Shown: positions 1,339 to 19,074 of the stretch, piece by piece
Layout of the letters: every line of letters starts with the position of its first letter
Position numbering within the stretch: the stretch's first letter is position 1
Virus record (IMG/VR): IMGVR_UViG_3300021962_005447
Coordinates: 1-22,404 of that record
Reading direction: 5' to 3' (one strand)
Source of the DNA: a virus
DNA length: 22,404 bases
Position numbers and translations under genes: made by a program
Notes under the pieces: generated by a model
What the model was told of the DNA's origin: nothing
The model's input: the letters and a program-made list of their open reading frames with translations, nothing else
Databases searched by the model: none

Positions 1339-1415
1339 TGGCGACCTGGAAGGGACTTGAACCCTCGGCCTTCCGCGTGACAGGCGGATGCTCTAACCAA
1401 CTGAGCTACCAGGCC
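1339..1415 (-). tRNA. tRNA-Asp(GTC)
   Basis: Full cloverleaf: acceptor GGCCTGG pairs with CCAGGTC (one G-T), anticodon loop CTGTCAC, normal D and T arms (TTCAAGT loop) and an encoded CCA. It is the last tRNA of the array in the direction of transcription. Confidence 0.97.
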
Positions 1416-1424
1416 ATTAAATTC

Positions 1425-1642
1425 GTAAGTGTTTGGCTACTCTACCCGATTGAGCCCCAAACTGAGTTGTTACCCTGTCCGTCAATATTTGCGTCTAGGT
1501 CAGACTTGCTTCTGCCCGATTGTGTGTCTCAAGTCGCCCATGGGGCCTTGCGGTCAATAACAATCTTACCGTGTCTGTATGGCAGCGACAATCGCCCACT
1601 TTCGGTACGCTCAAAGTGTAAAGCGGGGTATTCCAAAACTAC
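1425..1642 (-). ncRNA. Putative structured RNA A between tRNA-Ile2/Met and tRNA-Asp
   Basis: The 230-nt gap between two tRNAs has no convincing gene but can fold as one closed unit on the minus strand. GTAGTTTTGG (1642-1633) pairs with CCAAACACTTAC (1436-1425) as ten base pairs with two single-base bulges. Just inside, TACCC pairs with GGGTA. Inner hairpins include CACTTT/AAAGTG, GCGA/TCGC and GACTTG/CAAGTC. GC content is visibly higher than in neighbouring spacers. It would be excised with tight ends by tRNA processing on both sides. No known RNA family is recognised, and folding by eye is only suggestive. Confidence 0.45.
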
Positions 1643-1645
1643 ATA

Positions 1646-1724
<79 letters not shown>

Positions 1725-1730
1725 TTAAAC

Positions 1731-1817
1731 TGGTGGGTGAGGATGGAATCGAACCAACTCAGGCGTAAGCCAACAGATTTACAGTCTGCCGCGACTCTCC
1801 AACTTCGCCGCTCACCC
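1731..1817 (-). tRNA. tRNA-Tyr(GTA)
   Basis: Acceptor GGGTGAG/CTCACCC, anticodon loop CTGTAAA, a long variable arm as expected for bacterial tRNA-Tyr, T loop TTCGATT and an encoded CCA. Confidence 0.96.
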
Positions 1818-1845
1818 AATAAAATATAAAGCATTTTAAAATACA

Positions 1846-1998
1846 CTAAGGGAACTTGAACAAATTCTCAATACCGTCTATTGATTCAATGTTTTTGTCA
1901 TTACTGCCTAACTGCCCGTCACGTTCGGTCACATACGTACTCATACGCTTCTTGGTGTAATCTTGGCGTGTATCCGTCGATACCCTTATAACCTTCAT
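1846..1998 (-). CDS. Small hypothetical protein, 50 aa
   Basis: A 50-codon frame starts at ATG 1998-1996 and ends at TAG 1848-1846, 28 nt before tRNA-Tyr. The product begins MKVIRVSTDTRQDYTKKRM and ends NIESIDGIENLFKFP. It is charged, soluble and without recognisable domains. A purine-rich GTTAGGGTGT precedes the start and could act as ribosome binding site. The frame is short enough that chance cannot be excluded, but the amino-acid composition looks protein-like and it fills a stretch otherwise empty of genes. Confidence 0.5.
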   Translation of the reverse strand: MKVIRVSTDTRQDYTKKRMSTYVTERDGQLGSNDKNIESIDGIENLFKFP

Positions 1999-2022
1999 AC
2001 ACCCTAACGGATCAGGTAACCC

Positions 2023-2125
2023 TTAATATACTTTAAAATGCTCTGCATCCCCCGGCGGTATTTGTAGTACATCAATATAGATTAATCCTTGCTCCAACTC
2101 AACTAAGGTTGGGGATTCTATACAT
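2023..2125 (-). pseudogene. Frameshifted small reading frame (about 33 aa if corrected)
   Basis: A strong GGAGGAAGG ribosome binding site precedes ATG 2125-2123, but the frame MYRIPNLS stops after eight codons. If one C of the CCCC run (2114-2111) is skipped, the frame reads on as IPTLVELEQGLIYIDVLQ and ends with PPGDAEHFKVY at TAA 2025-2023. This could be a small gene broken by a one-base insertion, a sequencing error in a homopolymer, or a +1 programmed shift. I cannot distinguish these from one sequence. Confidence 0.4.
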
Positions 2126-2141
2126 CACTTGTACCTTCCTC

Positions 2142-2266
2142 CCGCTTCCCGACAGGGACCGTTCTCGCACTGCCAGCGGCCTTTAGGTTTGAAGACTACC
2201 ACCCGTAGCTGTCACGCTACTTCTCATCGTGTGGGTCACACTATCCGGAGACACCCGGAACGTCTT
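2142..2266 (-). ncRNA. Putative structured RNA B after tRNA-Glu
   Basis: Immediately after the CCA end of tRNA-Glu the minus strand can form a four-way junction of about 75 nt. AAGAC (2266-2262) pairs with GTCTT (2196-2192), enclosing three hairpins: CCGG/CCGG, GTGTG/CACAC and GTAGC/GCTAC. Further on, CCGCT (2179-2175) pairs with AGCGG (2146-2142) around an inner TCCC/GGGA hairpin, ending just before the GGAGGAAGG ribosome binding site of the next small frame. It is GC-rich compared with the surrounding spacers. It may be a stable RNA, a leader structure, or both. Confidence 0.4.
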
Positions 2267-2340
2267 GGTACACCGTACGAGAATCGAACTCGTCTTTCCG
2301 CCTTGAAAGGGCAGCGTCCTAACCGATAGACGAACGGTGC
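2266..2340 (-). tRNA. tRNA-Glu(TTC)
   Basis: Acceptor GCACCGT/ACGGTGT (G-T at the first pair), anticodon loop CTTTCAA, T loop TTCGATT and an encoded CCA. It is preceded by putative structured RNA E and a strong promoter. Confidence 0.96.
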
Positions 2341-2354
2341 GTAAAATGATAAAA

Positions 2355-2443
2355 GATAAGGGATACAAAATGCTGTCGTTTAAAACTAAGCGCGGAGTAC
2401 CCAGGCGATTTGCAGGGCCTAATAGCCGCTAGTTTCCCTTATC
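2355..2443 (-). ncRNA. Putative structured RNA E, leader of tRNA-Glu transcript
   Basis: The stretch between the promoter at 2480-2507 and tRNA-Glu folds into one long element. GATAAGGGA (2443-2435) pairs perfectly with TCCCTTATC (2363-2355). Inside, AAACTA pairs with TAGTTT, GCGG with CCGC, and AGGC with GCCT. The nested arrangement makes a nearly continuous rod ending 15 nt before tRNA-Glu. No reading frame of note exists here. It is probably a stable RNA or a processing or stability leader. Confidence 0.5.
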
Positions 2444-2479
2444 AATTTTTAAAGAACTTTTACTGCTTACTTGTTAACA

Positions 2480-2507
2480 ATTATACAGTCTTTAAACTGC
2501 TTGTCAA
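2480..2507 (-). promoter_or_regulatory. Consensus sigma70 promoter (TTGACA-16-TATAAT)
   Basis: Both hexamers match the consensus exactly on the minus strand: TTGACA 2507-2502 and TATAAT 2485-2480 with a 16-bp spacer. It sits 3 nt beyond the stop of the receiver-domain gene and would drive RNA E, tRNA-Glu and the tRNAs beyond. Confidence 0.9.
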
Positions 2508-2510
2508 CCA

Positions 2511-2948
2511 TCAGATATTTAAATGTTTTTGGGCATTAGCTATGTACTGCTCAATACGTACTTTACCTGCAGGATTCATGCTATGCACTACAAACTGCGG
2601 AAACTTGTATCCATTATCTTCACAGTAATCAACTAGCCATTTAGCACAATCATATCCGGTCTTTTCATTACCATAATCAAATGTAATGTTTAGTCCATCT
2701 GAGAGATCATCACCTGGCATCCAAATAGTAAATTTATTGTCAGTTGTATCATTTTCCTTTAGCATTGCCACATAATGCTCATCAGCTAAATCATGATCAA
2801 AACAAACAAAACCTGGTAAACCGTTTTGTTTAATGTGTGCAACAAATTGATCGTAATTACGAACTACATTTAGATCGTTACGCGGAAACAATGCCCAAGT
2901 TACTTGACTTGGTGAACGCTCGTCATCTAAAAACAATGTGTAACTCAT
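2511..2948 (-). CDS. Receiver-like domain protein (cyclic-phosphate-processing cREC type)
   Basis: The 145-residue protein has the fold signature of a stand-alone CheY-like receiver of the cREC type: FLDDER at residues 6-11 (paired acidic residues 8-9), FDHDL around 50-54 with Asp51 in the phospho-acceptor position, then TGYDCAKWLVDYC and a C-terminal VVHSMNPAG element. The HS.N signature replaces the usual Lys of classical receivers. Comparative-genomics work on the cREC family proposes that it processes cyclic-phosphate RNA ends; that is a family prediction, not shown here. Its place inside a tRNA array would fit an RNA-end repair job. The start is ATG 2948 with AGGAAAAA 4 nt upstream, 16 nt after tRNA-Ser. 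Confidence 0.75.
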   Translation of the reverse strand: MSYTLFLDDERSPSQVTWALFPRNDLNVVRNYDQFVAHIKQNGLPGFVCFDHDLADEHYVAMLKENDTTDNKFTIWMPGDDLSDGLNITFDYGNEKTGYDCAKWLVDYCEDNGYKFPQFVVHSMNPAGKVRIEQYIANAQKHLNI

Positions 2949-2964
2949 GGGATTTTTCCTAAAC

Positions 2965-3056
<92 letters not shown>

Positions 3057-3066
3057 GTATAAGTTA

Positions 3067-3095
3067 ATTATACAATCAACTTAGAAATATGTCAA
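3067..3095 (-). promoter_or_regulatory. Perfect consensus sigma70 promoter between two tRNA-Ser genes
   Basis: TTGACA (3095-3090), a 17-bp spacer and TATAAT (3072-3067) lie on the minus strand. The predicted start is a few bases before the 5' end of tRNA-Ser(GCT), so this is a dedicated promoter for that tRNA and the receiver-domain gene. Confidence 0.92.
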
Positions 3096-3099
3096 CCTC

Positions 3100-3187
3100 T
3101 GGCGGAAGAGGTGAGATTCGAACTCACGGACGCTTTCACGTCGGCGGTTTTCAAGACCGCTGGATTAAACCGCTCTCCCACTCTTCC
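3100..3187 (-). tRNA. tRNA-Ser(TGA)
   Basis: Acceptor GGAAGAG/CTCTTCC, anticodon loop CTTGAAA, a long variable arm, T loop TTCGAAT, discriminator G and CCA encoded. Confidence 0.96.
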
Positions 3188-3194
3188 TTTGTAT

Positions 3195-3277
3195 TGGTGC
3201 CCATGGAGGGACTCGAACCCCCACTCTCGCGAACTGGAACCTAAATCCAGCGTGTCTACCAATTTCACCACATGGGC
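3195..3277 (-). tRNA. tRNA-Leu(TAG)
   Basis: Acceptor GCCCATG/CATGGGC, anticodon loop TTTAGGT on stem CTGGA/TCCAG, a long variable arm as expected for Leu, and an encoded CCA. Its first base (3277) is the G of the TAG stop codon of the upstream sulfotransferase-like gene. Confidence 0.96.
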
Positions 3278-3873
3278 TAAATGTTAACAAACTTTATACT
3301 GTTAATTAGCTCGTAATCATCTTTGTAAAGTTTTTTTATGAGCTCATTATCAATTTGTTTAATTAATTTATTACCTACATTTAGATTTAATTGATTAAAA
3401 TCTAAACCATAAAATTTTTCTATATCTTGTACAACGTTATTACCATACCAAAAAAAATCTATATTTTCTAAAGACAAATTTGAGATAAATTTGCACTGCG
3501 GTTGAAAATGACAATCATTTGTAACTAGTCTATTGTTAGAAATTAAAGGTAAATTATCAAATAAGTTTTTTCCTGTAGTCAAAAACATATTTAATGCACT
3601 GATAAATCTTTCAACAGGGTCACGCAAAACAATAATATATTTACTGCTGGGTTGATCAAGGTAGTTGGAGGGAACCCAGCTATCTGTGTTTGATGTTAGA
3701 GCAGCAATGGAAATGCTTGTAGAAGCATTTTTTGGTACCATTACAAAATGTAAATTTTTTTCTTCGTTGAACAAAGACAATCCCAAAGGATGGTCGGCGA
3801 TCCGATCACAATTATTTTTTAATTGTAATTCAACATACTGTTGAAGTATTCTTTGTGATAAGTTTCCGTTCAT
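3277..3873 (-). CDS. Sulfotransferase-like protein (198 aa)
   Basis: Two landmarks of PAPS-dependent sulfotransferases are visible: a 5'-phosphosulfate loop-like VPKNASTS at residues 46-53 and a 3'-phosphate motif LRDPVERFISAL at 83-94. The protein is short (198 aa) with an Asn-rich, AT-rich coding sequence. I place the start at ATG 3873: the longer frame upstream runs through tRNA-Gln, which makes it implausible. No Shine-Dalgarno is present; a TATAAATA octamer (3886-3879) ends 5 nt before the ATG, suggesting a leaderless late transcript. The stop TAG (3279-3277) shares its last base with the 5' end of tRNA-Leu. Its substrate is unknown; a phage or host surface glycan is a reasonable guess. 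Confidence 0.75.
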   Translation of the reverse strand: MNGNLSQRILQQYVELQLKNNCDRIADHPLGLSLFNEEKNLHFVMVPKNASTSISIAALTSNTDSWVPSNYLDQPSSKYIIVLRDPVERFISALNMFLTTGKNLFDNLPLISNNRLVTNDCHFQPQCKFISNLSLENIDFFWYGNNVVQDIEKFYGLDFNQLNLNVGNKLIKQIDNELIKKLYKDDYELINSIKFVNI

Positions 3874-3878
3874 CAATA

Positions 3879-3886
3879 TATTTATA
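3879..3886 (-). promoter_or_regulatory. T4 late-promoter-like octamer TATAAATA
   Basis: An exact TATAAATA on the minus strand ends 5 nt before ATG 3873. T4 late promoters use this octamer as the -10 element, so transcription would start at or next to the ATG. It lies in the 22-nt AT-rich spacer after tRNA-Gln. Confidence 0.55.
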
Positions 3887-3895
3887 GCTAAAAAA

Positions 3896-3969
3896 TGGCT
3901 GCCCCTCAAGGATTCGAACCTCGGCTGCCGGAATCAAAATCCGGTGTCCTACCACTAGACGAAGAGGCA
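3896..3969 (-). tRNA. tRNA-Gln(TTG)
   Basis: Acceptor TGCCTCT/AGGGGCA (one T-G), anticodon loop TTTTGAT on stem CCGGA/TCCGG, T loop TTCGAAT, discriminator G and CCA encoded. Confidence 0.96.
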
Positions 3970-3978
3970 ATAAACTTA

Positions 3979-4054
3979 TGGTACCAAGAGCCGGGATCGA
4001 ACCGGCGACACCGGGATTTTCAGTCCCGTGCTCTACCAACTGAGCTATCTTGGC
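3979..4054 (-). tRNA. tRNA-Phe(GAA)
   Basis: Acceptor GCCAAGA/TCTTGGT (G-T at the first pair), anticodon loop CTGAAAA, T loop TTCGATC, discriminator A and CCA encoded. Confidence 0.96.
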
Positions 4055-4060
4055 AAATTC

Positions 4061-4138
4061 TGGCCGGCCCTGAGAGACTCGAACTCCCGACCTTACGGTT
4101 CGTAGCCGTATGCTCTAATCCAACTGAGCTAAGGGCCG
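4061..4138 (-). tRNA. tRNA-Arg(ACG)
   Basis: Acceptor CGGCCCT/AGGGCCG, anticodon loop CTACGAA (A34 likely edited to inosine), discriminator G and CCA encoded. Only one base separates it from the CCA of tRNA-His upstream. Confidence 0.96.
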
Positions 4139-4139
4139 A

Positions 4140-4216
4140 TGGGGTGAAGGACGGGACTCGAACCCGCGACAACAGGAATCACAATCCTGGACTCTACCAA
4201 CTGAGCTACCGACACC
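4140..4216 (-). tRNA. tRNA-His(GTG), acceptor stem with two mismatches
   Basis: The anticodon loop is TTGTGAT on stem CAGGA/TCCTG. The extra G at position -1 opposite C73 typical of tRNA-His is encoded, as is CCA. The acceptor strands GTGTCGG and CCTTCAC leave mismatches at pairs 4-69 (T-T) and 5-68 (C-T). The 5' strand with the mismatches is also the end of the coding sequence of the upstream SGNH gene, whose TAG stop is tRNA bases 8-10. Confidence 0.92.
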
Positions 4217-4886
4217 ATTGTGCTAATTGTTCTGCTACTGCTTTTGCCGATCTTGTTCCGGGATGCATGTTATCAGCGCCATGATCTAGATAATGAAATA
4301 AATTTACGTTTAACGCATCACGGGTATTTGGAAAAAAAGTGCCTTGAAAGTGCTTTGTATTTTTCCATATAATTTCTGCCATTTTCTGCAAAAAAATTGA
4401 TTGCATCAATGGGTTGCTTTCACTTATATTCCACGCATCAAAAATTGATTTGATACTGCGGCTAAAAATATTGTCTCCTGGCAGATTATTAGTCCATGAT
4501 CCAATGTGACATGGAGTGTTTTTATAAAAATATGTAATCCTGTTTATGCTAGTCCATAAGTTAATAACTGCATAAGGTGATTGATTCGACTCCGCTAATA
4601 TTGTTTGATTAAATACAGAATACGCTATAGAACTTGATGGAACCCCCATGTTTATAACAGGACGCTTCAACAATTTTTCTAACTGATAAGGTATAGTTTC
4701 ATCATCACTAAGACCAACACCAAACACATTTGAACAGCCAAATATTACAACAGACTCCTGCCAATTTATATCGCTAAATTCCGGAGCTCGGTAGTTAAGA
4801 GAATTAAGTTTGACATCTGTAACCACTAAGTCTCTAATGTTTCCAGGGAGAAACTGATCTTTTTTATAATATTCTATATTCTGCAT
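4206..4886 (-). CDS. SGNH/GDSL-like hydrolase (226 aa)
   Basis: The protein resembles SGNH-fold esterases/acyl hydrolases. Block I is FGCSNVFGVGL with nucleophile-position Ser52. An INMG segment near residue 81 matches block II, and the C-terminal DNMHPG (Asp205, His208) matches the Asp-x-x-His of block V. The usual Gly-Asp-Ser is Gly-Cys-Ser here. Such enzymes commonly deacylate or acylate surface sugars. I choose ATG 4886 rather than the TTG codons just upstream; it lies 6 nt after an exact TATAAATA and no ribosome binding site is visible. The last codons (Trp-Cys-Arg-stop) are read through the 5' strand of tRNA-His, so the gene and tRNA overlap by about 10 nt. Confidence 0.7.
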   Translation of the reverse strand: MQNIEYYKKDQFLPGNIRDLVVTDVKLNSLNYRAPEFSDINWQESVVIFGCSNVFGVGLSDDETIPYQLEKLLKRPVINMGVPSSSIAYSVFNQTILAESNQSPYAVINLWTSINRITYFYKNTPCHIGSWTNNLPGDNIFSRSIKSIFDAWNISESNPLMQSIFLQKMAEIIWKNTKHFQGTFFPNTRDALNVNLFHYLDHGADNMHPGTRSAKAVAEQLAQWCR

Positions 4887-4892
4887 CAACAA

Positions 4893-4900
4893 TATTTATA
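4893..4900 (-). promoter_or_regulatory. T4 late-promoter-like octamer TATAAATA
   Basis: An exact TATAAATA ends 6 nt before ATG 4886 of the SGNH gene and starts 9 nt after the CCA of a tRNA. The geometry matches the octamer before the sulfotransferase-like gene at 3873. Confidence 0.55.
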
Positions 4901-4909
4901 AGAATTAAA

Positions 4910-4985
4910 TGGTAGCAACGGGCAGACTCGAACTGCCGACGGGCGGCGTATGAGACCGCTGCTCTACCAACTGAGCTACGTTGCT
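4910..4985 (-). tRNA. tRNA with CAT anticodon, probably elongator Met
   Basis: Acceptor AGCAACG/CGTTGCT, anticodon loop CTCATAC on GCGGT/GCCGC, T loop TTCGAGT, discriminator A and CCA encoded. The first acceptor pair is A-T, so it is not a standard initiator. Its first two bases are the AG of the TAG stop of the upstream SGNH gene. Confidence 0.92.
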
Positions 4986-5400
4986 AAATTTTTGCTTTGC
5001 TAACTAGATCCTTGTAGCCGCGCCAGCTGGGATGAATCTTATCCGGCTGTACATATGGCGTACTTACAATAATATCTTTGTATTCACGTGCAAGTCTTTC
5101 TACAATAGCATTTACCTTAGGCTTACAAAATCCTTTGTTGCAAGGAGGCATAATCCAAACTACACGCTTTGCTTTGACTCGAATACGCATCTTACGCAAT
5201 TCTTTTTCAGTGTTAACACCTGCGTGATCGTTAGTGCCTAAGCTGATAACAACTGTATCAGCTTGAACAGGATTCATACCCCAACGCTGATTCCACTGCC
5301 AAGAGTTAAATCCGCCCTTGGAATATGACACGCATTCCGTTGGTGCAAACATCTTAGTACCAACTGCAATGCTGTCACCTAAAATCAAACATTCTAACAT
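4984..5400 (-). CDS. SGNH hydrolase (138 aa)
   Basis: All blocks of a compact SGNH hydrolase are visible: LILGDSIAVG with nucleophile Ser10, an oxyanion Gly near residue 30, LGTND at 54-58 and DKIHP with catalytic Asp120 and His123. At 138 residues it is shorter than typical SGNH esterases (about 180-200). No signal peptide is seen, so it acts in the host cytoplasm or on the virion. The start ATG 5400 has AAGGGAAG upstream, unlike its neighbour SGNH gene. The TAG stop (4986-4984) overlaps the first two bases of the following tRNA by two bases. The substrate may be an acyl group on a glycan made by the sugar operon; that is inference. Confidence 0.85.
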   Translation of the reverse strand: MLECLILGDSIAVGTKMFAPTECVSYSKGGFNSWQWNQRWGMNPVQADTVVISLGTNDHAGVNTEKELRKMRIRVKAKRVVWIMPPCNKGFCKPKVNAIVERLAREYKDIIVSTPYVQPDKIHPSWRGYKDLVSKAKI

Positions 5401-5421
5401 ACTTCTTCCCTTATTCTAACC

Positions 5422-5496
5422 TGGTGCTCCCGGAAGGATTCGAACCTCCAACCAAACCGTTATGAGCGGTCGGCTCTACCATTGAGCTACAAGAGC
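5422..5496 (-). tRNA. tRNA with CAT anticodon (Met or Ile2)
   Basis: Acceptor GCTCTTG/CGGGAGC (two T-G pairs), anticodon loop CTCATAA on GACCG/CGGTT, followed by TTGGT as in Ile2-type tRNAs, discriminator A and CCA encoded. This is the third CAT tRNA in the window; which is charged with Met or Ile cannot be settled by eye. Confidence 0.92.
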
Positions 5497-5508
5497 GAGC
5501 CAGGTAAC

Positions 5509-5584
5509 TGGTGGACTGTGTAGGGATCGAACCTACGACTTACTGATTAAGAGTCAGCTACTCTACCTACTGAGTTAACAGTCC
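5509..5584 (-). tRNA. tRNA-Lys(CTT)
   Basis: Acceptor GGACTGT/ACAGTCC, anticodon loop CTCTTAA, T loop TTCGATC, discriminator A and CCA encoded. D arm begins TAACTC rather than TAGCTC. Confidence 0.95.
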
Positions 5585-5591
5585 GTTAACT

Positions 5592-5792
5592 TTAATTAGC
5601 TACAACAGCGGCAGCAACCACTACCAATAACACAGCAATTGCTTGCCACTTTACTCGTGCAAACATCATTTGTGTTTGCTTGTTACGTGAGTCAGTTGTT
5701 TGATTCTGTGAGAAAGAAACAAGTCCCCTAAGCAATGCAAACAGTGTAAGTGCTGCCGCAATAGCAATAAGCACAACCATGAAAACAAGCAT
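5592..5792 (-). CDS. HIG1-like twin-transmembrane protein (66 aa)
   Basis: Two hydrophobic helices (about residues 2-22 and 48-64) flank a polar, basic loop. The pattern TLFALLRGL, a polar stretch, then RNK...MFARVKWQAIAV closely follows the HIG1 (hypoxia-induced) domain of alphaproteobacterial twin-transmembrane proteins and mitochondrial respiratory supercomplex factors. In bacteria and mitochondria such proteins bind cytochrome oxidase; a phage copy might tune host respiration during infection (inference). Its start ATG 5792 overlaps the TAA of the upstream membrane-protein gene (TAATG), so the two are translationally coupled and may act together. Confidence 0.7.
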   Translation of the reverse strand: MLVFMVVLIAIAAALTLFALLRGLVSFSQNQTTDSRNKQTQMMFARVKWQAIAVLLVVVAAAVVAN

Positions 5793-6094
5793 TAGATATG
5801 CTCACCGTCAACACTACGACCCCAACCAGCCTTCTTAACAAAGAGTTCCGGTTTCACTGTTGCAGTAGTGTATACTGCCACTGTCATGGCAGCGGCACCG
5901 ATAAGAACGGCATGGCCAATCAAACTTACTGCAAGAAATGTATAACTTCCAATCGCAACACTAAACGCAATGGCCCACATCCATCCTAGGATCTGATAGA
6001 CCATATGTCGAATATTACCTTCCGGAATATTACGCAACGGACTCTTATTATAGTCGAAGATAAAATTCCAACTGTTCAGTACAATGCTTTTCAT
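5792..6094 (-). CDS. Small membrane protein, 100 aa
   Basis: An N-terminal soluble part (MKSIVLNSWNFIFDYNKSPL) is followed by two transmembrane segments, about residues 34-55 and 57-78, then a polar tail ending GWGRSVDGEHI. No family is recognised. The start ATG 6094 has a GGAAG ribosome binding site and lies 24 nt after tRNA-Lys(TTT). It is translationally coupled to the HIG1-like gene, so a shared job in the inner membrane is likely. Confidence 0.85.
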   Translation of the reverse strand: MKSIVLNSWNFIFDYNKSPLRNIPEGNIRHMVYQILGWMWAIAFSVAIGSYTFLAVSLIGHAVLIGAAAMTVAVYTTATVKPELFVKKAGWGRSVDGEHI

Positions 6095-6118
6095 TATATT
6101 CTTCCTTCATTATAAAAA

Positions 6119-6194
6119 TGGTGGACCCTCCGGGGCTCGAACCCGGGACCAATAGATTAAAAGTCTACTGCTCTACCTACTGAGCTAAAGGTCC
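6119..6194 (-). tRNA. tRNA-Lys(TTT)
   Basis: Acceptor GGACCTT/AGGGTCC, anticodon loop CTTTTAA, T loop TTCGAGC, discriminator A and CCA encoded. Confidence 0.96.
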
Positions 6195-6201
6195 GTGTTG
6201 A

Positions 6202-6411
6202 TTAGAAATCCAACGGTATACCGTAATCTTGCTTTCTGCCCTGATAATGATCATCAGTGACACAATACATATGAGGAACTAGTTTTTGTTTCTTTTCTAA
6301 TTCTTTTGCCATCTCATAATAACATGAGAATTCGTTCTTGTATCGAACTTCTTTCTTCTCAACAAATCCACCATCGGGTGTAAAAAAGAAAATGATTAAC
6401 CAATACTTCAT
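6202..6411 (-). CDS. Small hypothetical protein, 69 aa, paralogue of the next gene upstream
   Basis: The product starts MKYWLIIFFFTPDGGFVEKK and has YCVTDDHY near residue 49. It shares the layout of the 66-aa protein encoded just upstream: a YWL...F.F start, a central Cys-containing helix and a YCV(T/S)D element, pointing to a tandem duplication. The hydrophobic start may be a beta strand rather than a membrane helix, given the charged residues that follow. ATG 6411 overlaps the TGA of its paralogue (ATGA). Function unknown. Confidence 0.8.
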   Translation of the reverse strand: MKYWLIIFFFTPDGGFVEKKEVRYKNEFSCYYEMAKELEKKQKLVPHMYCVTDDHYQGRKQDYGIPLDF

Positions 6412-6608
6412 ACTTCTGGATCCTGTGCTAGTCTATACTCTTCGTCGCTCACACAGTAAAACTGTGCCTGCATTTGAGTATTAATAATTGTACGAACATA
6501 TTCGCCGGCGAACTTTTCGCATTGTTCCATGTTAGCGGCTTCAATCATTTCTCTGGCCTGAAACTCATCATTAACATCAAACAAGAAAACAAACAACCAA
6601 TAAGTCAC
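6408..6608 (-). CDS. Small hypothetical protein, 66 aa
   Basis: The product starts with GTG (6608) overlapping the TGA of the upstream gene (GTGA). It reads (M)TYWLFVFLFDVNDEFQ and later FYCVSDEEYRL. It is the paralogue of the 69-aa protein that follows. No family is recognised. The conserved Cys and YCVSD motif could mark a small structural or regulatory fold. The three genes from 6790 to 6202 are translationally coupled and driven by the promoter at 6820-6848. Confidence 0.75.
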   Translation of the reverse strand: MTYWLFVFLFDVNDEFQAREMIEAANMEQCEKFAGEYVRTIINTQMQAQFYCVSDEEYRLAQDPEV

Positions 6609-6790
6609 ACTGTGACTCCGTTAACATAATCGCCGGCGGCGTCCCATGCTTCATCTTCAGTATCGTATGAAGCCTGCGAACGAACCGCCGGACCTTCAAG
6701 AAACTTAACTCGCCATACCCACGCCCACGGAGCGGAAGGCTCAACGAGGCAAATTGGGGCAACATCTTTTTCAATCATTGCTGAACGCAT
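6605..6790 (-). CDS. Small hypothetical protein, 61 aa
   Basis: The product is MRSAMIEKDVAPICLVEPSA followed by a Trp-rich strand (WAWVWRVKF) and an acidic helix near YDTEDEAWDAAGDY. It is soluble and acidic, with no known domain. ATG 6790 has an AAGGAG ribosome binding site 9 nt upstream and follows a good sigma70 promoter. It opens a three-gene coupled operon. Confidence 0.75.
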   Translation of the reverse strand: MRSAMIEKDVAPICLVEPSAPWAWVWRVKFLEGPAVRSQASYDTEDEAWDAAGDYVNGVTV

Positions 6791-6819
6791 TTGGTATACT
6801 CCTTACTTCCTACTTTACT

Positions 6820-6848
6820 ACAATAGCAAATGTTCTAGAGTCTGTCAA
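6820..6848 (-). promoter_or_regulatory. Sigma70-like promoter (TTGACA-17-TATTGT)
   Basis: TTGACA 6848-6843 and TATTGT 6825-6820 on the minus strand with a 17-bp spacer, upstream of the three-gene small-protein operon and tRNA-Lys(TTT). Confidence 0.8.
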
Positions 6849-6858
6849 CCAAAAAATG

Positions 6859-7074
6859 TTACATCCATGCATTTCGTAATGCTTGGCGTTCCCAGCCATA
6901 GCCGTCTGCATCCGGATCTTCATCGTATTCGGGAAAGTCCTCTGGAGCAGTATCGTTGTAGTGCTCCATCTCTATCTCTTCTTCTAGACTAGCCTTCTGC
7001 CACGCATAGTATTCATCACCACGCGGATTCATAAACTTCTGCATACCAATGTCATTGAGAATCGGATCAAACAT
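6859..7074 (-). CDS. Small acidic hypothetical protein, 71 aa
   Basis: The product starts MFDPILNDIGMQKFMNPRGD and is strongly acidic in its second half, with an EDFPEYDEDPDADG stretch. I take ATG 7074, which has AAGGA upstream. An upstream GTG in the same frame would add 55 residues that are only the shadow of the 57-aa gene encoded in another frame. It is third in a run of small genes behind the promoter at 7388-7415. No function can be assigned. Confidence 0.75.
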   Translation of the reverse strand: MFDPILNDIGMQKFMNPRGDEYYAWQKASLEEEIEMEHYNDTAPEDFPEYDEDPDADGYGWERQALRNAWM

Positions 7075-7084
7075 CTGCTGTTCC

Positions 7085-7258
7085 TTAGTCAAAGAAATTA
7101 CCCTTAGCCCAATAGTAGTTGCGTAGCGAACCACTTGCCATCCAAGCGCCTTGCGGCAGCGGACCAAACATCTTGTTAGCTTTGTCCATTGCTTCAAGCA
7201 TACGATTAGCTTCAACTTCAATCCGCTTACCTGCGGCACTAAACGAATAAGTATTCAT
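7085..7258 (-). CDS. Small hypothetical protein, 57 aa
   Basis: The frame runs from ATG 7258 to TAA 7087-7085 and encodes MNTYSFSAAGKRIEVEANRM, an amphipathic helix with several Met, then GPLPQGAWMASGSL and a C-terminal NYYWAKGNFFD. The start overlaps the TAA of the preceding 33-aa gene (TAATG). The composition (no low-complexity, balanced) and tight coupling support it as real. No family is recognised. Confidence 0.7.
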   Translation of the reverse strand: MNTYSFSAAGKRIEVEANRMLEAMDKANKMFGPLPQGAWMASGSLRNYYWAKGNFFD

Positions 7259-7359
7259 TACATCATCTCACTAGGAACAAGAGCGTAACCAACTTTCATA
7301 TCTTCACGAACAACTGTGAAAACTACAAAAGCAAAAGCGGCGACTGTAAAAACAAACAT
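7258..7359 (-). CDS. 33-aa single-pass membrane peptide
   Basis: The frame from ATG 7359 to TAA 7260-7258 encodes a very hydrophobic helix (MFVFTVAAFAFVVFTVV) followed by a short polar tail (REDMKVGYALVPSEMM). An AGGGAG ribosome binding site lies about 8 nt upstream and the promoter at 7388-7415 sits just before it. It is translationally coupled to the next gene. The size and single helix resemble small phage membrane modulators, but no family is recognised. Confidence 0.65.
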   Translation of the reverse strand: MFVFTVAAFAFVVFTVVREDMKVGYALVPSEMM

Positions 7360-7387
7360 CCAACTACTCCCTACTGCCTACATTTTA

Positions 7388-7415
7388 ACAATAGCATCTT
7401 TTGGGTATATGTCAA
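7388..7415 (-). promoter_or_regulatory. Sigma70-like promoter (TTGACA-16-TATTGT)
   Basis: TTGACA 7415-7410 and TATTGT 7393-7388 on the minus strand with a 16-bp spacer. It lies between tRNA-Gly(TCC) and the 33-aa membrane peptide gene. Confidence 0.75.
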
Positions 7416-7434
7416 CCGAAAAAGTAGAAATAAT

Positions 7435-7510
7435 TGGAGCGGGCGAACGGGTTCGAACCGTCGACATCTTGCTTGGAAGGCAAGTGCTCTACCAACTGAG
7501 CTACACCCGC
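7435..7510 (-). tRNA. tRNA-Gly(TCC)
   Basis: Acceptor GCGGGTG/CGCCCGC (one T-G at pair 6-67), anticodon loop CTTCCAA, T loop TTCGAAC, discriminator T and CCA encoded. Confidence 0.96.
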
Positions 7511-7517
7511 ATTAAAA

Positions 7518-7592
7518 TGGCTCCCTAGGATGGGTTCGAACCACCGACCAGACGATTAACAGTCGTCTGCTCTACCACTGAGCTACTAGGGA
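7518..7592 (-). tRNA. tRNA-Asn(GTT)
   Basis: Acceptor TCCCTAG/CTAGGGA, anticodon loop CTGTTAA, T loop TTCGAAC, discriminator G and CCA encoded. Confidence 0.96.
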
Positions 7593-7599
7593 ATAAAAC

Positions 7600-7674
7600 T
7601 GGCATACCCTCAAGGATTCGAACCTCGACCAGCGGTTTTGGAGACCGTTATGCTGCCGTTAACACCAAGGGTAC
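7600..7674 (-). tRNA. tRNA-Trp(CCA)
   Basis: Acceptor GTACCCT/AGGGTAT, anticodon loop CTCCAAA, T loop TTCGAAT, discriminator G and CCA encoded. The D arm is divergent: TGGTGTTAACGGC replaces the usual TAGCTC context. Confidence 0.9.
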
Positions 7675-7680
7675 AAAAAA

Positions 7681-7755
7681 TGGAGCGGGCGAAGAGATTC
7701 GAACTCTCGACAGCTTCGTTGGCAACGAAGGGCTCTACCACTGAGCTACGCCCGC
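7681..7755 (-). tRNA. tRNA-Gly(GCC)
   Basis: Acceptor GCGGGCG/CGCCCGC, anticodon loop TTGCCAA, T loop TTCGAAT and an encoded CCA. Its first ten bases are also the last codons and TAG stop of the upstream oxygenase gene. Confidence 0.96.
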
Positions 7756-8219
7756 GTATAAGCGAAAGGTTTTTTATCCCAAGGATTTATACCTATTGAT
7801 TGCCTAATGCCTGTACAAGGTGTACCTGCATGTAATAAATCACTGCGAAAAATAACCGTTCGATTTGTTCTCGGTGCTATACTAACACCGTATTCTGGAA
7901 AAAATAAGTTACCACCTTTGGATACATTGACCAAAGGATAGTAAACTATACTGCACAAAGGATGAATCAGTTCGCGCCTTATGCTCCAAGCATCTTCATC
8001 TTTGTCTTTGTGCGGATCAGGTGTATCATAATTAATATGCATTTCACATCCAATCATAGCTGAGAGGTCAAAGTATTTACTTGCCATATCAACTAGCTGT
8101 GAAGCAAATGATAACTGATCTGAGTCAAACCATGTATCATCATCTGATAGAGAAACTGCCCAACGCTGAACAGCTTTTAGATCTTTCTCTGCAAATGTAT
8201 CGTCAAATATATGAAACAT
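7746..8219 (-). CDS. 2-oxoglutarate/Fe(II)-dependent oxygenase (157 aa)
   Basis: The protein has the iron-binding facial triad of the prolyl-4-hydroxylase-like 2OG oxygenases: His70-x-Asp72 in DPHKDKDE, distal His130 in LLHAGTP, and Arg139 about nine residues later, which would bind 2-oxoglutarate. Between them lie FFPEYG and SIAPRTNRTVIF, matching the core double-stranded beta helix. I start at ATG 8219, since the longer frame runs through tRNA-Ala. Such enzymes hydroxylate proteins, nucleobases or small molecules; the target here is unknown. The final codons and the TAG stop (7748-7746) are tRNA-Gly bases 1-10. It lies between two tRNAs with no ribosome binding site apparent. Confidence 0.85.
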   Translation of the reverse strand: MFHIFDDTFAEKDLKAVQRWAVSLSDDDTWFDSDQLSFASQLVDMASKYFDLSAMIGCEMHINYDTPDPHKDKDEDAWSIRRELIHPLCSIVYYPLVNVSKGGNLFFPEYGVSIAPRTNRTVIFRSDLLHAGTPCTGIRQSIGINPWDKKPFAYTRA

Positions 8220-8229
8220 AGTTATAAAA

Positions 8230-8305
8230 TGGTGGAGGATAGCGGGATCGAACCGCTGACCTATAGCTTGCAAAGCTACCGCTCTCCCAGCTGAGCTAAT
8301 CCCCC
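8230..8305 (-). tRNA. tRNA-Ala(TGC)
   Basis: Acceptor GGGGGAT/ATCCTCC with a G3-T70 pair, the hallmark of tRNA-Ala; anticodon loop TTTGCAA, T loop TTCGATC, discriminator A and CCA encoded. Confidence 0.97.
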
Positions 8306-8331
8306 GGGATATTTTACTTATCATTTAAAAA

Positions 8332-8409
8332 TGGTCGGGATAGTAGGATTCGAACCTACGACCCCCTGGTCCCAAACCAGGTGCGCTAACCAGACTGCGC
8401 TACATCCCG
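8332..8409 (-). tRNA. tRNA-Pro(TGG)
   Basis: Acceptor CGGGATG/TATCCCG, anticodon loop TTTGGGA, T loop TTCGAAT, discriminator A and CCA encoded. Its first ten bases form the last codons and TAG stop of the upstream sulfotransferase-like gene. Confidence 0.96.
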
Positions 8410-9044
8410 AATATCTTGTATAAAGGATTTCCTTTATTAAACTCTTCTAATACGTCAACGTGTTGCTCAACAAACTGTTGTGTAAAGGTTGAATCGTATG
8501 TATAACTGTATGTATCATCGTATCTATGTAGTTGATACTTAGAATAGGAATCGTTCATGTTTTCAAGGATTATTAATTCTCCCGGAAAAGATTTGAACCA
8601 TTCCCCCATTACAGAAATTTCATTAACTAATATTGTTAAAATATCTAAAGATTGAGGACCAGTCAAATGTATAGTTTCTCTATTTGTTCTAGAGTCACAT
8701 ATACTCGTTTGTTTGATACCTGCAATGCTTTTAAGTTGTTCTGTAAAGTTTAATCTTAAACAATAATATAACTTTGCAGACTTTAACAGTTCACCAATCA
8801 ATGATGCATTATGTGGATAAAGCATCAATAGGTGATCTATGTGAAACTTAGCTACTGTATTACTAATTTTTGAAAGTGCTAGTGTTTCTTTAACTATTTG
8901 TTCAATGGGCTTTAGCAGTTCGTTATCGAAGCCTCTGTTATCAGTAACAGGTTCGTAAAGGTTAACTGCGCTGTGCTCCAATTCTAAAAATCTACACAGC
9001 GAATTGCTTCCGCTTCTTGGTGTAGATATAACAAGGTGTAACAT
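8400..9044 (-). CDS. Sulfotransferase-like protein (214 aa)
   Basis: The N-terminus VISTPRSGSNSLCRFLE (residues 5-21) matches the PAPS-binding loop of the sulfotransferase/Stf0-like fold, and a later YCLRLNFTEQLKSIAG segment is placed where the 3'-phosphate motif falls. At 214 residues it is compact. The start ATG 9044 lies 5 nt after TGTAAATA with no Shine-Dalgarno, as in two other tRNA-embedded genes. The end reads Phe-Gly-Met-stop through tRNA-Pro positions 1-10. It is unrelated at the sequence level to the 198-aa sulfotransferase-like gene beyond the short motifs, so it probably acts on a different acceptor. Confidence 0.75.
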   Translation of the reverse strand: MLHLVISTPRSGSNSLCRFLELEHSAVNLYEPVTDNRGFDNELLKPIEQIVKETLALSKISNTVAKFHIDHLLMLYPHNASLIGELLKSAKLYYCLRLNFTEQLKSIAGIKQTSICDSRTNRETIHLTGPQSLDILTILVNEISVMGEWFKSFPGELIILENMNDSYSKYQLHRYDDTYSYTYDSTFTQQFVEQHVDVLEEFNKGNPLYKIFGM

Positions 9045-9049
9045 ATTAA

Positions 9050-9057
9050 TATTTACA
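9050..9057 (-). promoter_or_regulatory. Late-promoter-like octamer TGTAAATA
   Basis: This one-mismatch variant of the T4 late octamer ends 5 nt before ATG 9044. It is in the short spacer after a tRNA, in the same position as the octamers at 3879-3886 and 4893-4900. Confidence 0.45.
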
Positions 9058-9066
9058 CCTTAGTGT

Positions 9067-9160
9067 TGGTACTCTCGGGTGGATTCGAACCACCGACGCT
9101 CCCTAATCTGGGGACTATGCCGTGTATAAGACGGGTGTTTTACCACTAAACTACGAGAGC
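9067..9160 (-). tRNA. Unusual tRNA, anticodon TAT with a long variable arm
   Basis: Acceptor GCTCTCG/CGAGAGT, D arm GTTTAGTGGTAAAAC, T arm GGTGG/CCACC with loop TTCGAAT and an encoded CCA. The anticodon stem is CCGT/ACGG with a C-C at the outer pair; loop CTTATAC gives anticodon TAT (Ile, AUA). Unusually for Ile, the variable region is about 23 nt and can form a TCCC/GGGA hairpin, a feature of class II tRNAs (Leu, Ser, Tyr). The amino acid identity is therefore uncertain. Confidence 0.8.
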
Positions 9161-9161
9161 A

Positions 9162-9236
9162 TGGTATCAGTAGGTGGATTTGAACCACCGACCTACGCCT
9201 TATCAGGGCGGTGCTCTACCGCTGAGCTATACTGAT
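9162..9236 (-). tRNA. tRNA-Ile(GAT)
   Basis: Acceptor ATCAGTA/TACTGAT, anticodon loop CTGATAA, T loop TTCAAAT, discriminator A and CCA encoded. One base separates it from the tRNA with the TAT anticodon. Confidence 0.96.
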
Positions 9237-9244
9237 ATACAAAT

Positions 9245-9391
9245 TTTAGATAACCGCTCAGTTTACTATTCTTTTGCCGACTGATGTAGCTTTGTCTACA
9301 CTGTGCTTTTCCTAGGATCACAGTCATTAAGCCGCGAACAAGGTCAGTCCTCGGTATGTCGATTCGCTAACGAGCCGAACAGTTATCTAAA
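9245..9391 (-). ncRNA. Putative structured RNA C between tRNA-Cys and tRNA-Ile
   Basis: The 158-nt gap between two tRNAs is gene-free and closed by a perfect 10-bp helix, TTTAGATAAC (9391-9382) with GTTATCTAAA (9254-9245). Inside are a hairpin TCGGCTCG/CGAATCGA (9378-9359, one mismatch), a helix GACTGA/TCAGTC (9349-9344 with 9284-9279) and, nested in it, hairpins ACTGTG/CACAGT and TGTAG/CTACA. This is a compact multibranched fold of about 147 nt. tRNA processing on both sides would release it almost exactly. I recognise no known family. Confidence 0.55.
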
Positions 9392-9394
9392 CTC

Positions 9395-9472
9395 TGGAGG
9401 GACGGGCCAGATTTGAACTGGCGACTTTACGGATTTGCAATCCGTTGCATTGGACCACTCTGCCACCGTCCC
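9395..9472 (-). tRNA. tRNA-Cys(GCA)
   Basis: Acceptor GGGACGG/CCGTCCC, anticodon loop TTGCAAA on CGGA/TCCG, T loop TTCAAAT, discriminator T and CCA encoded. Confidence 0.95.
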
Positions 9473-9478
9473 AAAATA

Positions 9479-9555
9479 TGGTGCCCCAGCACGGATTCGA
9501 ACCGCGGACCTCCCGCTTACAAGGCGGTTGCTCTGGCCAACTGAGCTACTAGGGC
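9479..9555 (-). tRNA. tRNA-Thr(TGT)
   Basis: Acceptor GCCCTAG/CTGGGGC (one T-G), anticodon loop CTTGTAA, T loop TTCGAAT, discriminator A and CCA encoded. It is the first tRNA of the array in the direction of transcription. Confidence 0.96.
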
Positions 9556-9566
9556 GTGAATTTTTA

Positions 9567-9760
9567 CCACACTCTTAGGAATGTGGGTAGATAAGCATAG
9601 GACTCATTGACAGCTTGCCAGTGTGACCACGCCTCTGGCCGCGGCCCTATGCTTATCTACTCTAGGTTTTTACCACCGGTGTTGTCGCCACCAGCTTCTC
9701 ATCCCCTAGGCCGCCCACGTTAGTAGCAGTTTATTTAAAGTGTTCTGCAGGACCGCGTTC
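9567..9760 (-). ncRNA. Putative structured RNA D, leader of the tRNA array
   Basis: This gene-free stretch lies between the promoter at 9779-9807 and tRNA-Thr. It contains a perfect 15-bp helix, GTAGATAAGCATAGG (9660-9646) with its complement at 9601-9587, capped by a GC-rich region with GCCAG/CTGGC. A second hairpin, CCACA/TGTGG (9586-9582 with 9571-9567), abuts the long helix and could stack on it. Upstream, CTGGTG pairs with CACCGG (9694-9676). The sequence GTGGTAAAAA occurs twice, once after each hairpin arm. It is much more GC-rich than adjacent spacers. It is likely an abundant stable RNA or processing leader. Confidence 0.55.
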
Positions 9761-14716: not shown

Positions 14717-15466
14717 TTACAATATGATTGTTTCTTCTTGTATATCGATTGGTATATTAACTGTGCCTGCGATTTGCTTCATTGCATCGACTCTCGATGT
14801 TGTGTCTCTACTGCTATGTAAATGAATTATATTAGCATCCGTAAATTTACACCCATTCCACTCTTCTGCAAAAGGTATATTTAAGTTAAAGATCTGAAAG
14901 GCCATCTTTGGATCATGTACCTCAGATACATCCAACCCTTGACTCCACAACTGATAGTTGTGAATCAACTGTCCCCAACTCCAATCGTTTTCCTTGTGTG
15001 TAAACCACTTGTCCATGAGTCTTTCGCCTAAGTCCCAAACTTGTGGATCCATCGCCGCCGGATAGTATCTAACATCATCGTTGAAATAATGCTGTGCTTC
15101 TTCATGTGTTTTTGGATCAGTATAATTAAACATCATCATGTCATTATACTTACCAAACACTTCTGTTGGTTTGAGGAACATAGTATCTGCTCCCATACAC
15201 AAGATGTTGCAGGGCTCTTTGTGCCATAGTTCCTTAATCATGTACCAATGTGCTATTTGATATGCTCTAGAATCAAGTACTGGTGCAGTAAATTTAATTT
15301 CTTCCCAATCGCCTTGTAGATAAGTTTTAGCACTGCTTCTACTGATAGAATACATGTTTTCATAGTCTAAGAGGTCACGTTCAGCCTTTGGATTGTCTCC
15401 GGTGCCTTTCCAATAACCCCAGTGCTTTATAATTGGGCGCACAGCGCCAATAAGATAATTTTTCAT
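14717..15466 (-). CDS. Putative glycosyltransferase (249 aa)
   Basis: The protein is soluble and looks like a small GT-A fold transferase: NILCMGADTMFLKPTEVFG near residues 87-105 resembles the strand plus acidic metal site (Ala-Asp-Thr) followed by the Phe-Leu-Lys-Pro turn seen in nucleotide-diphospho-sugar transferases. A Trp-rich acceptor region (KENDWSWGQLIHNYQLW) follows, and HLHSSRDTTSRVDAMK lies near the C-terminus. It is the last gene of the sugar operon, 4 nt after the 4,6-dehydratase stop, and would use the sugar made by the upstream enzymes. The family assignment is by pattern only. Confidence 0.6.
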   Translation of the reverse strand: MKNYLIGAVRPIIKHWGYWKGTGDNPKAERDLLDYENMYSISRSSAKTYLQGDWEEIKFTAPVLDSRAYQIAHWYMIKELWHKEPCNILCMGADTMFLKPTEVFGKYNDMMMFNYTDPKTHEEAQHYFNDDVRYYPAAMDPQVWDLGERLMDKWFTHKENDWSWGQLIHNYQLWSQGLDVSEVHDPKMAFQIFNLNIPFAEEWNGCKFTDANIIHLHSSRDTTSRVDAMKQIAGTVNIPIDIQEETIIL

Positions 15467-18469: not shown

Positions 18470-19074
18470 AGTTTATCTAAATCCTCAGGCTTTAAAATAT
18501 AATAATGTGTTAGTACACCCTCTGCGAAAGACCACTTTGGTGGCTCTGTGTTACGAATGTTAATACGTGGCAAGAAAGCCTGTAATCTATTGTTGATATA
18601 ATCTCTGTCAATCATATCGTAGGCAATCATTCCGTTTACATTGACATATACTTCTAAGTTATCTAACTTTGCTTCGTATATAAACCGTAGTGCTTCCCAA
18701 ATAGATCCTTCGCCGCACTCGCCGTCACTAATAAGGCAATGTACTTTACGATCTCTATTAGCTAGTGCATAGCCTGTTGCTACAGTAAGGCCCATTCCAA
18801 GACTGCCGGTAGAACAATATATACCATCAGAAAGGTTGCGATGAGGATGAACTCCATGCTTGTGAAAAAGTTCTTCAGCGTTTCTATTTTCATATTTTTC
18901 CAATACAACATACAATGCAAGAGCGGCATGTCCAGAGCTTAGAATAAAAGGCTCGTCTGGTTGCTTGGCTGCGTAAATCTCATCGATTATATTAACAGCA
19001 TTAAGAGTAGAACTAAGATGTCCTATCTTTTCTTTAAAGCTGATATCTACGATTCGTTGTTCTAATTGATTCAC
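18466..19074 (-). CDS. Transketolase-like TPP-binding subunit (202 aa)
   Basis: This is the PP domain of the split transketolase: SSGHAALALY near 46-55, GIYCSTGSLGMGLTVATGYAL (84-104) and the Mg-diphosphate motif ISDGECGEGSIWEA (115-128), then YVNVNGMIAYD (the Asp-x-Asn becomes Val-x-Asn). The first glycine of the usual GDGE motif is Ser. It starts with GTG 19074 overlapping the upstream TGA (GTGA). The enzyme would move a two-carbon ketol unit between sugars; in a deoxysugar operon it could build a branched or extended sugar or feed a heptose route. That role is inference. Confidence 0.88.
   Translation of the reverse strand: MNQLEQRIVDISFKEKIGHLSSTLNAVNIIDEIYAAKQPDEPFILSSGHAALALYVVLEKYENRNAEELFHKHGVHPHRNLSDGIYCSTGSLGMGLTVATGYALANRDRKVHCLISDGECGEGSIWEALRFIYEAKLDNLEVYVNVNGMIAYDMIDRDYINNRLQAFLPRINIRNTEPPKWSFAEGVLTHYYILKPEDLDKL

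Follow-up and report, generated by a model that had tools for sequence, protein, structure and literature searches.

Protein genes that take their stop codon from the next tRNA in a viral tRNA array, with signs of gene exchange

How does a protein gene come to end inside the transfer RNA (tRNA) gene that follows it? The question is raised by IMG/VR virus record IMGVR_UViG_3300021962_005447, which was analysed in its entirety (22,404 bases, hereafter the window). According to ARAGORN and Rfam, the window carries 25 tRNA genes, all on the minus strand, in an array at 1339-9555 whose order matches that of the related contig G004. Five minus-strand protein genes within this array end in a TAG supplied wholly or partly by the next tRNA. 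This layout had been proposed in a preliminary description of the sequence, and its coordinates agree with the tRNA and open reading frame (ORF) calls. The explanation that we regard as probable is that the array is a hot spot of exchange or homing, in which genes came to abut tRNAs directly, the borrowed stop being a by-product.

At three junctions the complete stop is U8-A9-G10 of the tRNA. Gene 2 (4206-4886, minus strand like all features of the array; 226 amino acids (aa), likely start ATG 4886) stops at 4206-4208, which are nucleotides (nt) 8-10 of tRNA-His(GTG) at 4140-4215, whose first 24 nt are identical to those in G004. Gene 4 (7746-8219; 157 aa) stops at 7746-7748, nt 8-10 of tRNA-Gly(GCC) at 7681-7755; the 2OG ORF listed from 8324 crosses a tRNA-Ala, so the likely start is ATG 8219. 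Gene 5 (8400-9044; 214 aa) stops at 8400-8402, nt 8-10 of tRNA-Pro(TGG) at 8332-8409. Both tRNA-Gly and tRNA-Pro are supported by ARAGORN, Rfam, and a check of the acceptor stem. The two remaining junctions share fewer bases. The TAG of gene 1 (3277-3873; 198 aa, likely start ATG 3873) lies at 3277-3279 and shares one base, 3277, with nt 1 of tRNA-Leu(TAG) at 3195-3277, the acceptor stem of which is paired at 7/7 positions. That of gene 3 (4984-5400; 138 aa) lies at 4984-4986 and shares two, 4985-4984 being nt 1-2 of a CAT-anticodon tRNA at 4910-4985 (ARAGORN, Rfam). Such sharing of bases by a protein gene and a tRNA on the same strand is the arrangement that characterizes overlaps of the selB/selC type. 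Two more array genes (5592-5792 and 6202-6411) have a TAA of their own, 7 nt before a tRNA-Lys, so the borrowed stop holds at five of seven junctions.

The names first given to the proteins, two sulfotransferase-like, two SGNH, and one 2OG oxygenase, stood for gene 3, a GDSL/SGNH hydrolase that passes the Pfam cut-off for Lipase_GDSL_2. Genes 1, 2, and 4 score below the cut-offs: gene 1 is weakly sulfotransferase-like (Sulfotransfer_2, 19.8 bits, cut-off 22), the only match of gene 2 is a weak one to DUF6473 and its fold model is unusable, with a predicted local distance difference test score (pLDDT) of 32, and the 2OG-Fe(II) oxygenase-like gene 4 gives 22.1 bits with 2OG-FeII_Oxy_3 (cut-off 27) and E=9.5e-8 with phrog_274. 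Gene 5 has a P-loop-like N-terminus and matched no family profile, and its fold model (pLDDT 37) is too low to use; an alignment scan of genome contigs for a cellular source of this gene found nothing, and tblastn against named phages gave no match for gene 5 and two distant ones for gene 3. The ratio of nonsynonymous to synonymous substitution rates (dN/dS) came to 0.04-0.12 (SGNH gene), 0.105 (2OG gene), and 0.16-0.17 (gene 5); purifying selection thus acts on these three of the five, and genes 1 and 2 are less certain as genes. Acceptor stems are fully paired (7/7) in 22 of 24 junction tRNAs, the exceptions being tRNA-His (5/7) and the tRNA-Ala of locus L132 (6/7). Between relatives, tRNA-Gly and tRNA-Pro show compensatory acceptor-stem changes, though the 5' strand also codes for the last protein residues. 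For genes 3-5 both products, protein and tRNA, look real by these signs.

The arrangement is not confined to the window. Relatives were gathered through the SGNH gene, which led to 80 viral loci, and through gene 5, which led to three; a further 80 viral tRNA loci, chosen solely by their tRNA pattern, served for comparison. Fetched pieces of the phage contigs were joined, and every gene of 90 aa or more whose end lay close to a tRNA on its own strand was counted. In the phage group, 14 of 50 junctions have the gene ending at tRNA position 8, versus 2 of 54 in the other viral tRNA loci (Fisher p=6e-4). Deduplication by hand left 12/45 in the group (p=0.001), and contigs that had not been fetched for the trait gave 7/35 (p=0.02). 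One of the two position-8 ends in the comparison set, L199, belongs to a gene family that is also present in the phage group. Among the deduplicated ends lying inside tRNAs, 12 of 15 are at position 8, where a random frame would give 31% (p=1.4e-4); ends deeper inside the tRNA are disfavoured, which fits the cost of a longer invasion. Chance as the sole cause is ruled out by the comparison of loci and by this reading-frame test. The preliminary description had named independent stops in relatives, with an overlap existing here only by chance, as evidence that would count against it. Independent stops in relatives were indeed seen; restriction to the window by chance is contradicted by recurrence across several families and several phages, with protein identity as low as 46%.

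Gene families in which both states occur suggest how the overlap forms. Of 30 distinct SGNH homologues, 26 are 138 aa long regardless of what lies behind them. Without a tRNA directly behind them they stop at the same codon by themselves, mostly with TGA or TAA, and before the CAT tRNA (window, G004, G005) the stop consists of a T plus tRNA nt 1-2. In a GNAT-like family, the members from L130 and L131 carry a stop of their own behind NYEY(L/I)NNEV... In those from G008 and L199 (both at tRNA-Val) and L132 (tRNA-Ala), the L codon of NYEYL includes tRNA nt 1, so that the protein has lost its tail and takes its stop from the tRNA. Relatives of gene 5 always stand before tRNA-Pro and always end within it, with the stop at nt 8-10 at 96% and 46% identity and at nt 22-24 at 61%; the tRNA-Pro of the 61% relative (contig G002) has UAC at nt 8-10. 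Together with another G002 junction, where the gene stops at nt 13, this case rules out U8-A9-G10 as a strict requirement. Judged from these sequences, the overlap is an outcome of how gene and tRNA were joined.

That such units of coding sequence (CDS) and tRNA are exchanged by recombination in tRNA sequence had also been proposed, and the comparison with relatives supports it by gene gain and loss, diverged tRNAs, scars of tRNA 3' ends, endonuclease genes, and the occurrence of one gene family before different tRNAs. Contig G004 shares the window's complete set of 25 tRNAs and their order, but genes 1, 2, and 5 are missing from it and different genes occupy other junctions; its Met-His gap, where the window has gene 2, measures 7 nt. 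When tRNA junctions were classified by hand, tRNAs whose upstream segment had changed showed a median of about 12 differences between the window and G004, versus 0 for unchanged ones (p=2e-4). Absence of a gene from the homologous site of a relative along with co-conversion of the flanks, the signature of SegB-type exchange, is therefore present between these two arrays. The scars were taken from direct alignment, an automated search being too noisy for statistics. Behind a new tRNA-Leu of G004 lie 13 nt of the 3' end of the window-type tRNA-Leu, and behind its tRNA-Ala lies a scar of 10 nt. In contig G003, tRNA-Ile(tat) is followed by a 45-nt 3' half that is identical to the window tRNA at 36 of 45 positions, and the adjoining endonuclease gene ends at U8-A9-G10 of this tRNA-Ile(tat). 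HNH endonuclease genes occupy cassette positions at tRNA-Val and tRNA-Ala of G004 and at tRNA-Leu(taa) of G002. The published SegB motif, reverse-complemented, was found in the T-arm of 11 of the 25 window tRNAs.

Several points weigh against this explanation. The endonuclease genes were seen in relatives and not in the window itself, where none adjoins the five genes, so homing could have operated in another place or played no part. Some junctions changed without a change in the tRNA, as with the tRNA-Met of G004, which follows a 177-aa gene and shows 0 differences, and relatives of genes 1 and 2 were sought in viral contigs and not found. Ordinary homologous recombination between arrays could also yield most of the pattern. 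Homing, or homing-assisted exchange with passengers, is nevertheless favoured because of the scars, the endonucleases in cassette position, and the parallel with T4 segB.

Two tRNAs differ between window and G004 in a localized manner. For tRNA-His (window 4140-4215, G004 62587-62662) the differences fall mostly in the anticodon arm, and for tRNA-Ser(TGA) (window 3100-3187, G004 62012-62103) only the middle part differs and the ends are identical. Gene conversion and evasion of tRNA-cutting defences are both possible causes.

A scheme of the following kind would account for the junctions. Free-standing endonuclease genes and passenger genes would insert directly against the 5' end of a tRNA gene, in many cases together with a new copy that replaces the neighbouring tRNA, and double-strand breaks in tRNA genes would drive the exchange. 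The new junction would delete the gene's own tail or stop together with the spacer, leaving the joined gene to end at the first in-frame stop of the tRNA, most often the nearly invariant U8-A9-G10. This stop would cost just 2-3 extra codons and, as part of a tRNA under selection, could not be lost by drift. Leaderless late transcripts that extend into the tRNA would be the source of three of the five proteins. The layout, its recurrence, the presence/absence polymorphism, the tRNA divergence, the scars, the position of the endonucleases, and the selection on both products are direct observations.

The suggestion that the genes are expressed late gained support from T4-type late promoter boxes, which in three of the five precede the ATG by 5-6 nt. 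The box TATAAATA lies at 3879-3886, 5 nt before the ATG of gene 1, and at 4893-4900, 6 nt before that of gene 2, and the late promoter-like box TGTAAATA lies at 9050-9057, 5 nt before that of gene 5, all on the minus strand; genes 3 and 4 are without a late box. Within 60 nt upstream of genes, TATAAATA is enriched about 15- to 20-fold in G006, G007, and G014, as would be expected of a T4-type late promoter in phages with T4-type structural genes. Its distance from the ATG is usually about 18-40 nt, with an additional sharp class at exactly 5 nt (33 cases, versus 0-6 at each other distance up to 20). This class is rare or absent in the sampled parts of T4 (0/22), Melnitz (1/37), HTVC008M, and RN05-S. 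Across the group (G004-G007, G014) it comprises about 33 genes, including a gene in G014 that resembles baseplate wedge gene 25, and the endonuclease gene at tRNA-Ala of G004 likewise shows this spacing. Where an array has no gene at the site, the box precedes the tRNA by about 7-10 nt. In T4 late promoters, an 8-bp TATA box lies roughly one turn of the helix ahead of the start site (PMC2988020). The boxes of this group are alike in being 8-bp TATA-type elements upstream of genes and differ in their prominent class at exactly 5 nt. With the helical-turn rule, a spacing of 5-6 nt means that the mRNA would begin at or beside the AUG. Genes 1, 2, and 5 are therefore probably leaderless, and the 5-nt class probably represents a genome-wide set of leaderless late genes. 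No paper on leaderless phage genes with TATAAATA late promoters was found in the literature searched.

RNase P cleavage at tRNA nt 1 would be expected to strip the preceding message of its stop, and a ribosome terminating at nt 8-10 would cover the acceptor strand and the D-arm. From this geometry, either/or use would follow: each gene-tRNA transcript would give protein or tRNA, because the cleavage removes the stop. Transfer-messenger RNA (tmRNA) is the rescue RNA for messages without a stop. It is present, with Rfam confirmation, in all five relatives of at least 50 kb, as permuted genes at 54253-54774 in G004 (167 nt past the last tRNA of the array), 56784-57308 in G005, 26289-26702 in G006, 119841-120216 in G007, and 14720-15093 in G014, and also at the contig edge in G008. 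These phages are related, so the six cases count as one observation. The phage tmRNA may help to clear stalled ribosomes. About 2.3% of phage genomes carry a tmRNA (PMC9004378).

Other explanations differ in how they read the same junctions. It is highly improbable that they are an artefact of dead tRNAs or of ORFs that are not genes and simply run on into the tRNA. Genes 1 and 2, without detectable relatives and with a failed codon-usage score, would suit this explanation; the low dN/dS values (0.04-0.17) and paired acceptor stems rule it out for genes 3-5, Rfam matches all 25 tRNAs, and the same layout occurs in independent contigs. Compaction without cassette movement, in which the pressure for a small genome shrinks spacers and genes lose their own stops by drift near an in-frame stop of the tRNA, appears quite unlikely. 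It would explain why many genes stop 2-12 nt before tRNAs and why the GNAT-like family has lost only a non-conserved tail. As a sole cause, however, it is opposed by whole genes gained or lost between unchanged neighbours, by the replacement of adjoining tRNAs and the scars left behind, and by the far lower rate in other viral tRNA loci.

The overlap itself might instead be selected as a regulated switch, with early transcripts yielding tRNAs, leaderless and heavily translated late transcripts yielding protein, and the overlap setting the ratio. The late boxes right before three of the five genes and before tRNAs in empty sites agree with this, as does the phage-encoded tmRNA, and a similar model has been proposed for selB/selC (PMC8124441). 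Genes 3 and 4 are without a box, however, and the position of the stop varies within a family (nt 8, nt 22, or an own stop in relatives), so that such an early/late switch is speculative and we consider it unlikely. The same low probability is given to a wider form of the idea, that the phages use a module free of untranslated regions throughout, in which a leaderless late promoter and a CDS are followed by a tRNA serving both as stop and as RNase P maker of the 3' end, with either/or transcripts, rescue by tmRNA, and a switch from early tRNA to late protein. Exchange and homing at the array, with the borrowed stop as a by-product, remains the favoured explanation.

The closest known counterpart is selB with nested or overlapping selC (tRNA-Sec), for which the nonstop-mRNA, either/or hypothesis was proposed (Mukai 2021, PMC8124441). 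There too, a same-strand protein gene enters a tRNA, and one lineage has the stop within it. The difference is that selB/selC is one bacterial gene pair with the stop at nt 46-48 or past the tRNA, whereas the phage group has many unrelated genes and tRNAs in arrays, mostly with U8-A9-G10, late promoters, and gene exchange. In T4, SegB cuts tRNA genes and drives inheritance of the tRNA region (PMC2988022, PMC13096335). The segB gene is similarly a free-standing endonuclease gene within a tRNA array, 5 nt upstream of a tRNA; it has its own stop, whereas in this phage group endonucleases as well as non-endonuclease passengers end inside the tRNA. In the tRNA punctuation of mitochondria, tRNA excision sets the 3' ends of mRNAs and can remove part of a stop codon. 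Polyadenylation then rebuilds the stop, which is not expected in these phages. Known kinds of arrangement (CDS/tRNA overlap, SegB-like invasion of arrays, T4 late promoters) are thus combined here in a new, group-wide manner.

As for the identity of the group, the T4-type major capsid protein gp23 was found in 6 of 19 searched records of window relatives. By the gp23 of one relative, the nearest named phages are Melnitz and HTVC008M, both Kyanoviridae, at about 66% identity, and DNA matches of the window in named phages are short and mostly on tRNA genes. Judged by sequence, the group is T4-like and Kyanoviridae-related. Some non-coding parts of the arrays were also recorded. The window spacer at 9237-9394 (158 nt) has kept its length and sequence in G004, and that at 9556-9720 has long inverted repeats; both are without an Rfam match. 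A GOLLD RNA (Rfam RF02032, 187.5 bits) in L093 at 18663-19125 (about 56663-57125 of G004) encloses tRNA-Lys(CTT). The short element agcagtaccgtctgctgaacca opens two unrelated spacers of G004, Thr-Cys (about 68149-68378) and Trp-Asn (about 66317-66407), and resembles a repeated mobile or structured element.

In phages, then, a tRNA gene can also serve to end translation and to receive gene cassettes. This bears on the growth and change of phage tRNA arrays, which are now tied to anti-phage defences that cut tRNAs. At the junctions, tRNA maturation and translation would also compete for a single RNA, a naturally occurring conflict that can be put to the test. Leaderless-type late genes are found throughout the group together with CDS-tRNA overlaps and a phage tmRNA, which makes the nonstop question answerable in a cultured member.

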